Source of the DNA: Natronorubrum sulfidifaciens JCM 14089
Lineage (GTDB): Archaea; Halobacteriota; Halobacteria; Halobacteriales; Natrialbaceae
Length of the DNA stretch: 64,000 bases
Direction of reading: 5' to 3'
NCBI RefSeq assembly: GCF_000337735.1
Contig: NZ_AOHX01000037.1
Location: forward strand, 62,001-126,000
Below, one piece after another: positions 14,902 to 59,038 of this stretch. The position numbers and the translations under genes were made by a program. Under the pieces are notes generated by a model. The model was given only the letters and a program-made list of their open reading frames with translations. It had not been told where the DNA came from and ran no database searches. How positions within the stretch are numbered: the stretch's first letter is position 1; every line of letters begins with the position of its first letter.

Positions 14902-15228
14902 CGACAGTCGTTCGTTGTGGGGGAGATCTGTTATAAAGGGCGGATGGTTAGCCGCGTTTCGTTTGTGTTCAACGATTTGGGGGGTACCCGTTGTTTCAGC
15001 CGCATTTATCCTATCGGTTATGACTGTTTCAAAAACAGCGAGACGTTTTATAACCGTTCCAGATTTATTATTTCCAATGGGTCATATGTGGTTAATACTC
15101 AGTCTTTTCTACCGGCGGTATACAATATTTTGAAATATGAGTGCCTGAATATATCGTCTGACTGGCCGAATCGACGTGGGTCGACAGCGAGCGATGCTCG
15201 GGGCGGTCACGTTGTACGACCCGTCTCA
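14902..15228. other. AT-rich intergenic region
   Basis: No credible gene is present. Roughly 14950-15160 is clearly richer in A+T than the surroundings, with phrases such as TTTATTATTTCC and ATATCG. A six-base-stem hairpin, CTGTTT-CAA-AAACAG, lies at 15024-15038. The minus-strand promoter of the DUF7123-like gene is at the left edge. The long plus-strand ORF that crosses this region is a shadow of moaE. Confidence 0.6.
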
Positions 15229-15301
15229 TACTGTCGGACAACAGTCAGTGAGACGTCAGTCGCACATTCGCGGCCGATCTTCGAATCGTGCCGTCCGACA
15301 G
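15229..15301 (+). repeat. dispersed palindromic element, copy A
   Basis: Begins TACTGTCGGACA and ends CCGTCCGACAG, with imperfect inverted arms. The centre (AGTCAGTGAGACGTC, then CGCGGCCGATCTTCGAATCGTG) matches copy C nearly base for base. It ends two bases before the moaE stop codon, that is, immediately 3' of moaE. Two other copies lie at 58064 and 58927 in the same orientation. Confidence 0.85.
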
Positions 15302-15303
15302 CC

Positions 15304-16131
15304 TCAGGATCGGTCGTGCACCCAGAACTCGTCGTCGACTGTGACCTCTTTTTTGAACAGCGGAACCTCGTCTTTCAGCCGATTGATGCCGTCTTCGACG
15401 GTTCGAAACGCCTCCTCGCGGTGGCCGGCGAGGACCACGACAAAGACGATGTCTTCGCCGTCCTCGACGATGCCAGTCCGGTGGTAGAGTTCGACCTCGA
15501 GCACGCCCGCACGCGCCTCGAGATCCGTCTCGAGGGCCGCCATTCGCTCGTCGGCGACGCCCTCGTACTTCTCGAACTCGAGATATTGGGTGCGTGCGTC
15601 GTCCGGGTCGTCTTTTGCGCGCACTCGACCGGTGAAGGTCGCGATCGCGCCCGAGCGCTCCGCCGCCGGCGACCGTTTGACCCGGTCGACCAGCGACTCG
15701 AGAGTTTCGTGAGGGTCGGTCTCCTCGAGGGCGGCGACGACGGCCTCGACGTCGAGTTCGCCGGGTGTGTCGACGGCTTCGAGGACGTCGTCGTCATCGA
15801 CATCGCTCGAGCCCACGACGAGTTTCGGGTAGCGAAGGTCGTCGACGCCGACGACGACGGCGTAGTCACAGGTCGGCGTCAGTTGATCGAGCGCGTCCGC
15901 CACGTCCATTCCAGTTCCGGTGGCGGTCCAGTCGCCGTCGGCACCGAGGTCGTAGATGACATCGCCACCGACAGCCGTCGGTTCGTGGGCGTGCATCCCG
16001 TCTGCGATCGTCGCGTCGTATCTGACGACGCCGACACGGCCCGCCGCGGTGAGTCTGTCGATGGTTCGATCGACGACTTGCTCGAGTGTGTCGCCGCGTG
16101 CGCCGTGGTCGAGAATACCGAGTACGTGCAT
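15304..16131 (-). CDS. moaE: molybdopterin synthase catalytic subunit fused to a MobB-like domain
   Basis: Large subunit of molybdopterin synthase, which inserts sulfur into precursor Z during molybdenum cofactor synthesis. The C-terminal half (about residues 150-275) is MoaE: SGAIATFTGRVRAKDD, then YLEFEKYEGVADERM, LYHRTGIVEDGEDIVFVVV, GHREEAFRTVEDGINRLK and the catalytic Lys pair in VPLFKKEV. The N-terminal 140 residues resemble MobB (MHVLGILDHGARGDT), but the P-loop has lost its Lys, so GTP binding is doubtful. The ATG at 16131 is the family-like start. A palindromic repeat follows the stop directly. Confidence 0.92.
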   Translation of the reverse strand: MHVLGILDHGARGDTLEQVVDRTIDRLTAAGRVGVVRYDATIADGMHAHEPTAVGGDVIYDLGADGDWTATGTGMDVADALDQLTPTCDYAVVVGVDDLRYPKLVVGSSDVDDDDVLEAVDTPGELDVEAVVAALEETDPHETLESLVDRVKRSPAAERSGAIATFTGRVRAKDDPDDARTQYLEFEKYEGVADERMAALETDLEARAGVLEVELYHRTGIVEDGEDIVFVVVLAGHREEAFRTVEDGINRLKDEVPLFKKEVTVDDEFWVHDRS

Positions 16132-57679: not shown

Positions 57680-58063
57680 ATGAAGGAGTACAAAATGCGC
57701 CGCGGCGAGTATCTCGAGGAGCGAATTCCCGATATGGAATCGACGATCGAGGACTACTTCGGCCCGATCACTGAGACCGAGGAGTACAAGGGGAGCGAAC
57801 TCTACGTCATCGGCGAACCCGACAACCCCGTCTTCGAAAAGGTCGTCGCTGGAACCGTCGAGTACTCCGGCAAAAAGGACAAACTCGGCGTCGAGTTCTA
57901 CGAGCGTGACCCCACCGAACTCGGTCCGGACGAACTCGAGGCCGCCGGTGAAGCCGTCGACGCGAAAAACAGCTTCCTGCTCGAGGCGACCGGTCGTGAC
58001 GCCAAATCCCGCCGCGAGTCGATGAAACGACAGGTCGAAGACGACCCTGATCACGACTTCTAA
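57680..58063 (+). CDS. DUF5611 family protein
   Basis: A 127-residue haloarchaeal protein: MKEYKMRRGEYLEERIPDMESTIEDYFG, then YVIGEPDNPVFEKVVAGTVEYSGKKDKLGVEFYERDP, and a C-terminal helix (AAGEAVDAKNSFLLEATGRDAKSRRESMKRQVEDD). The fold may be a beta-barrel followed by a helix. Function unknown. The ATG at 57680 is the family-like start; an in-frame ATG at 57641 and a GTG at 57593 lie upstream. Its TAA stop is followed at once by a palindromic repeat. Confidence 0.85.
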   Translation: MKEYKMRRGEYLEERIPDMESTIEDYFGPITETEEYKGSELYVIGEPDNPVFEKVVAGTVEYSGKKDKLGVEFYERDPTELGPDELEAAGEAVDAKNSFLLEATGRDAKSRRESMKRQVEDDPDHDF

Positions 58064-58169
58064 TACTATCGGACAGCAGTCAGTGAGACGTCGGTCGCGA
58101 AGTCGCGGCCGTCCTCGGGGATCGGCCGCAGTCGCGCGCCCGATCGTCAACTCGTGCTGTTCGCCAGTA
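58064..58169 (+). repeat. dispersed palindromic element, copy B (expanded)
   Basis: Starts TACTATCGGACAGCAGTCAGTGAGACGTCGGTCGCGAAGTCGCGGCCG, as in copies A and C, but then carries about 30 extra bases before the right arm GCTGTTCGCCAGTA. The arms match at 10 of 13 positions. It begins directly after the DUF5611 stop codon, between convergent genes, 13 bases from the stop of the lipoprotein gene. Confidence 0.75.
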
Positions 58170-58181
58170 TCACTCGTCGGT

Positions 58182-58882: not shown

Positions 58883-58926
58883 TCGCCCCACGCTCACTCG
58901 AGCGACGATCTGTCGCCGGACACTGT

Positions 58927-59001
58927 TACTGTCGGACAGCCGTCAGTGAGATGTCGGCCGCGACTTCGCGACCGATCTTCGAATCGTGCTGTCCGACAGT
59001 A
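58927..59001 (+). repeat. dispersed palindromic element, copy C (best conserved)
   Basis: A 75-base unit with perfect 14-base inverted termini, TACTGTCGGACAGC and GCTGTCCGACAGTA. Internal hairpins are CGCGA-CTT-CGCG and CGATCTTCGAATCG. It lies between convergent genes, 37 bases past the 3' end of pitA. The sequence matches copy A almost throughout and copy B in the left half. Confidence 0.88.
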
Positions 59002-59038
59002 TGAAACGAGTCGATCGGAACCGGACAGCGAGCCTCGC

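Follow-up and report, generated by a model that had tools for sequence, protein, structure and literature searches.

Mobile palindromic mini-elements of haloarchaea duplicate a TNA target and are enriched at stop codons

The closest described relatives of the repeats analysed here are the MITEs (HqIRS families) and the short mobile repeats SMR-A and SMR-B of Haloquadratum walsbyi (PMC3119063); few haloarchaeal cases appear in a 2024 review of prokaryotic MITEs (PMC10969869). Like the present elements, the Haloquadratum MITEs are short, non-coding and mobile, with inverted ends, target duplications, a high copy number and a patchy distribution. They differ in sharing their ends with known transposons, whereas the searches made here found no partner, and the available text of that account describes for them neither a 3-bp TNA duplication nor a preference for stop codons (PMC3119063). 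The SMRs match the present elements in length (about 80–110 bp), in prominent inverted ends, in tens of copies and in that no enzyme was found; their ends are unrelated to known transposons, and their mobilisation has been called enigmatic (PMC3119063). They are reported without target duplication (PMC3119063), whereas the present elements duplicate TNA, a comparison of descriptions and not of sequences; because its target is duplicated, the element is not a Haloquadratum SMR as defined. SMR-A targets PATEs and IS605-type elements (PMC3119063), whereas most present copies are intergenic beside ordinary genes, at gene 3′ ends. Bacterial REP sequences with RAYT offer a further likeness, as dispersed extragenic palindromes with a possible dedicated enzyme (PMC2817692). 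Halovirus intergenic repeats were considered and set aside as unrelated, being AT-rich promoter repeats (PMC7230728). The end sequence of the present elements was not found printed for archaea in a relevant context in the literature searched. Neither paired terminal repeats nor target duplications are known from REPs, whereas the present elements have both. By form the element is a MITE, with four of the five defining features: it is short and non-coding, has inverted ends, makes a fixed 3-bp duplication, and is dispersed and mobile.

The window is a stretch of 64,000 nucleotides from Natronorubrum sulfidifaciens JCM 14089 (contig NZ_AOHX01000037.1, positions 62,001 to 126,000). An earlier note, made from its sequence alone, had described three dispersed palindromes in it, suggesting a REP/MITE-like element or a structured 3′-end signal. 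All three lie at the places it named, with the following limits and flanks.

15226..15228, no strand: left target duplication of copy A, TCA, read from the sequence
15229..15303, plus strand: copy A, short form of 75 bp, with a decayed right end that reads GACAGCC instead of GACAGTA
15304..15306, minus strand: right target duplication of copy A, TCA; on the minus strand it reads as the TGA stop of gene 15304-16131
58061..58063, plus strand: stop codon TAA of gene 57680-58063, bordering copy B on its left
58064..58169, plus strand: copy B, long form, 106 bp, belonging to the class of about 108 bp
58170-58172: TCA right of copy B, against TAA on its left; the duplication of copy B is no longer exact
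58924..58926, no strand: left flank of copy C, TGT; the right flank is TGA (59002-59004), a near-duplication with one mismatch
58927..59001, plus strand: copy C, short form, 75 bp, between two convergent genes
58927..58940, plus strand: left terminal inverted repeat of copy C, TACTGTCGGACAGC, 14 bases
58988..59001, plus strand: right terminal inverted repeat of copy C, GCTGTCCGACAGTA, 14 bases, the perfect inverse of the left

The perfect 14-base inverted ends claimed for copy C are thus seen in the sequence, and each copy does lie behind a gene stop or between convergent stops: copy A touches the stop of a minus-strand gene that lies to its right, copy B comes directly after the stop of a plus-strand gene to its left, and the convergent stops on either side of copy C are 44 and 37 bp away. 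The common orientation proposed for the three holds relative to the window strand and fails relative to the genes, for which A and B differ and the genome-wide picture is mixed. The two internal hairpins proposed for copy C gave way to one long foldback with an internal stem.

With copy C as query, the host genome (3.46 Mb in 63 contigs) gave 74 match pieces that merge to about 40 places, with E = 4e-26 for a second copy, so the repeat is spread over the genome as the earlier note supposed, well beyond the three copies of the window. Family-wide the ends read TACTGTCGGAC...GTCCGACAGTA, with terminal inverted repeats of 13–14 bp, and a further host subfamily has the ends TACTGCCGGACAG. The host carries short (75–77 bp) and long (107–111 bp) forms, a 162-bp form enlarged by an additional hairpin insert, and a number of half copies; over all genomes the forms measure 75, 78–79, 98–99, 108 and 162 bp, all below 500 bp and with no coding capacity for a transposase. 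The 162-bp copies (L029 2004-2165, L035 2004-2165 and L039 2002-2163) have in common a 54-bp internal insert (TTGAGCAACCCCGTGGG...) with hairpins of its own. Two copies with TACTGCCGGACAG ends (L043 2001-2188 and L044 2001-2185) contain a single N flanked by repeated interior, which is probably an assembly join across two copies or a tandem. The end repeats are near-palindromic (CTGTCSGACAG), so that the two ends can also be read as direct repeats of each other. A solitary 15-bp TACTGTCCGACAGTA occurs at L053 2000-2014, flanked by TCA/TCA, and at L049 2000-2014; the one in L053 is probably the product of a deletion between the direct-repeat ends.

Several lines of evidence demonstrate that the three repeats are copies of a mobile element rather than a fixed 3′-end signal. 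The bases just outside the ends of host copies are TCA/TCA, TGA/TGA, TAA/TAA or TTA/TTA. Of 150 places scanned across all loci, 112 have the same triplet on both sides, always TNA, and where exact ends were required, 91 of 116 distinct copies have an exact TNA duplication. Since T and A alone might belong to the repeat, it is the middle base that proves duplication; the two flanks match in a fraction of 0.90, 0.89 and 0.87 of elements at the three duplicated positions and of 0.06–0.38 outside them. We also joined the host flanks, searched nine congeneric genomes for the empty sites and aligned the results. Uninterrupted orthologous sites were recovered that lack the element together with one of the two TNA triplets: a single TAA remains in three relatives for L039, a single TAA in two relatives for L018 and a single TCA in one relative for L016. 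Two genomes contain three identical copies each, of 108 bp (G057) and 79 bp (G329), at different sites with their own duplications, which indicates recent movement. The REP/MITE-like element proposed in the earlier note is borne out by these features. That the repeats are degenerate REP-like or chance palindromes without mobility, a reading to which the halved or decayed copies might be referred, is contradicted by the duplications, the empty sites and the identical copies. An origin of the family by chance was likewise rejected, the exact paired-end pattern giving 0 matches to the reversed control over 392 genomes, and we regard a non-mobile palindrome as scarcely credible.

The family is widely distributed. 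A covariance model detected it in 72 of 125 genomes of the host's family and in 20 of 29 genera, and a pattern scan found it within the Natrialbaceae in Natrialba, Natronorubrum, Natrinema, Haloterrigena, Natronococcus, Natrarchaeobius, Salinadaptatus and Halobiforma, among others. Copies with exact ends number 39 in G197, 27 in G359 and 10 in G329. Scattered genomes in other families of the class carry elements of 77–79 bp and 98–99 bp with identical TACTGTCGGAC ends and different interiors; among 28 inspected copies from these families, 23 have an exact duplication and seven lie on a stop codon. Plasmids of Halobellus, Haloarcula, Halomicrobium, Natribaculum and Natrialba are also carriers, and on one of them, the 637-kb Natribaculum breve plasmid CP095391.1, 24 places resemble the 78-bp Haloarcula-type variant, a local build-up. 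Phage records gave no match to the element and viral contigs no paired ends; 14 viral-contig matches to a single end were discarded, because they have no second end and look like chance. A second family of palindromic mini-elements (77–81 bp, ends TACGGWCTGCTGT) makes the same TNA duplication, at L055 3715-3794, L086 1230-1309, L037 2143-2221 and other sites, and has the subterminal layout of the main family, with AGTCA on one side and AACGAT on the other. At L350 1400-1477 a 78-bp element with unrelated ends TAGGGATTATCGT, a TGA/TGA flank and a similar interior layout adjoins a TACTGTCGGAC element.

The choice of target was read from the reconstructed empty sites, which have TNA at the centre, 83% of them TCA or TGA, within a weak, roughly palindromic preference (C before and G after the triplet, G at −5 and C at −6). 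By our home-made codon-usage gene caller, whose calls are not curated annotation, the duplication falls exactly on the stop codon of a neighbouring gene in 37 of 101 intergenic copies. Of the rest, 18 lie within 30 bp of a gene 3′ end, 19 at 31–100 bp and 13 at greater distances, and 14 are next to no gene 3′ end; the TNA sites available in the same five classes number 716, 653, 1,258, 2,087 and 2,296, so about 10% of them are at a stop codon. Counting only copies with an intact duplication, 30 of 81 occupy a stop codon, whereas 10.4% of the TNA sites in intergenic sequence do (P = 2e-10). The link between copies and stop codons in the earlier note is therefore real, and the copies are not strewn at random inside genes. 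When sites are weighted by the flank preference learned from non-stop insertions, the expectation is 8.6%, and flank preference does not explain the enrichment. Divergent (promoter) intergenic regions are depleted, with 14% observed against 30% expected, and convergent gaps are enriched.

Taking these observations together, we put at about 85% the probability that the three repeats belong to a non-autonomous MITE, palindromic over its full length, with ends TACTGTCGGACAG/CTGTCCGACAGTA, mobilised by a transposase in trans and surviving at stop codons. A DDE-type transposase leaves a fixed-length target duplication and paired terminal repeats, and we infer such a mechanism here. As the element has no gene, its enzyme must act in trans; a transposase so supplied would recognise the element ends and insert the element at a TNA triplet, mostly TCA or TGA, in a weakly palindromic G+C-flanked target, duplicating the three bases. 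Insertion at a TGA or TAA stop codon would leave the gene intact, and copies at stop codons and gene 3′ ends would be the likeliest to persist, those elsewhere being purged. The stop-codon link would then follow from target choice plus selection, and selection appears the simplest account of it because a duplicated TGA or TAA leaves the protein unchanged; true targeting of gene ends may also lie behind the enrichment.

The same enrichment, together with the folding of the repeats, could be taken to mean that they are functional 3′-end or terminator/RNA-stability signals that have spread by helping the host. As single strands the three copies fold far better than shuffled sequence (z = −7.4 for copy C, at −43 kcal/mol, −3.6 for A and −4.5 for B). 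Over 61 aligned copies a three-stem foldback has 93.9% of its cells paired, and nine pairs show two-sided changes against 3.2 in shuffles, eight of the nine in the two inner stems. Such co-variation hints that the foldback itself is maintained, something that a plain DDE MITE does not need and that counts against our preferred reading; it is a hint and not proof of RNA function, because kinship and templated correction of imperfect palindromes also yield it. An excess of G-T pairs in the main set, considered as a sign of a strand-specific RNA, was dismissed as biased, since the left end is fixed by the search pattern, and wobble pairs in the host genome (13 G-T against 8 A-C) give no clear strand signal. 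Relative to the oriented element the stop lies on the left in 16 cases and on the right in 23, so a directional 3′-end signal is not supported, though a palindrome might work both ways. In close relatives the orthologous genes are not followed by the element, many relatives have none, and an Rfam scan of the window gave no match. Hairpins are, moreover, not the usual archaeal terminator. The structured 3′-end signal of the earlier note is thus disfavoured, and we consider this function very unlikely.

A standard MITE should have an autonomous partner, now or in the past, and that none turned up in the searches made counts against the MITE reading. The partner searches used two transposase profiles (PF01609 and PF13358) in draft genomes and allowed one to two end mismatches. 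Neither the 30 loci surrounding PF01609 transposases nor the 20 surrounding PF13358 transposases yielded an autonomous element with these ends, and none appeared among long or distant end-pairs at any of the loci retrieved. Following unpaired ends in copy-rich genomes led to no transposon; in G197, despite its many exact-end copies, the inspected extra ends that were followed up are truncated copies beside ordinary genes. A subterminal motif common to two genomes, GGTTAAGACTTTA, was rejected as a lead, because its sequence context matches in both and no long pair of transposon-like ends goes with it. The neighbouring proteins form no recurrent cluster, and no gene is consistently linked to the elements. 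IS5-type elements (IS1031 group) and PIF/Harbinger make a 3-bp TNA-type target duplication, as the present elements do; their ends start with G and the present ends with TAC, and our searches tied no transposase of either type to these elements. The partner may have diverged, be extinct in these genomes or lie in assembly gaps, or it may be no insertion sequence at all.

Under this last option, the host or a lost element would supply an unlinked recombinase devoted to moving the elements, as in the comparison with REP/RAYT and the Haloquadratum short mobile repeats, and no same-ended insertion sequence would be involved. The truncated ends in G197 speak for it, as do the several sister families that differ in their ends and have the TNA duplication and layout in common, and the class-wide spread of one end sequence suggests a widespread enzyme. 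The absence of any consistently linked gene weighs against it, as does the scope of the partner search, which covered two transposase families in draft genomes where a partner may sit in a gap, be diverged at its ends or be extinct; on balance we hold an unlinked enzyme possible but rather unlikely. Still more tentative, and in our estimation doubtful, is a class-wide system of orphan palindromic mini-elements with swappable ends (TACTGTCGGAC, TACGGWCTGCTGT and TAGGGATTATCG), one layout and one TNA duplication, served by a dedicated enzyme that is not an insertion sequence and tuned to stop codons.

Orphan status and the stop-codon habit are the interesting features of this MITE-type element. 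Gene-end annotation, 3′ UTRs and genome assembly are all affected by a mini-element of this kind, which is widespread and recently active in haloarchaea and repeatedly occupies stop codons and the ends of genes. It also turns the question of what enzyme moves repeats that lack a transposase in halophilic archaea into one that can be tested.
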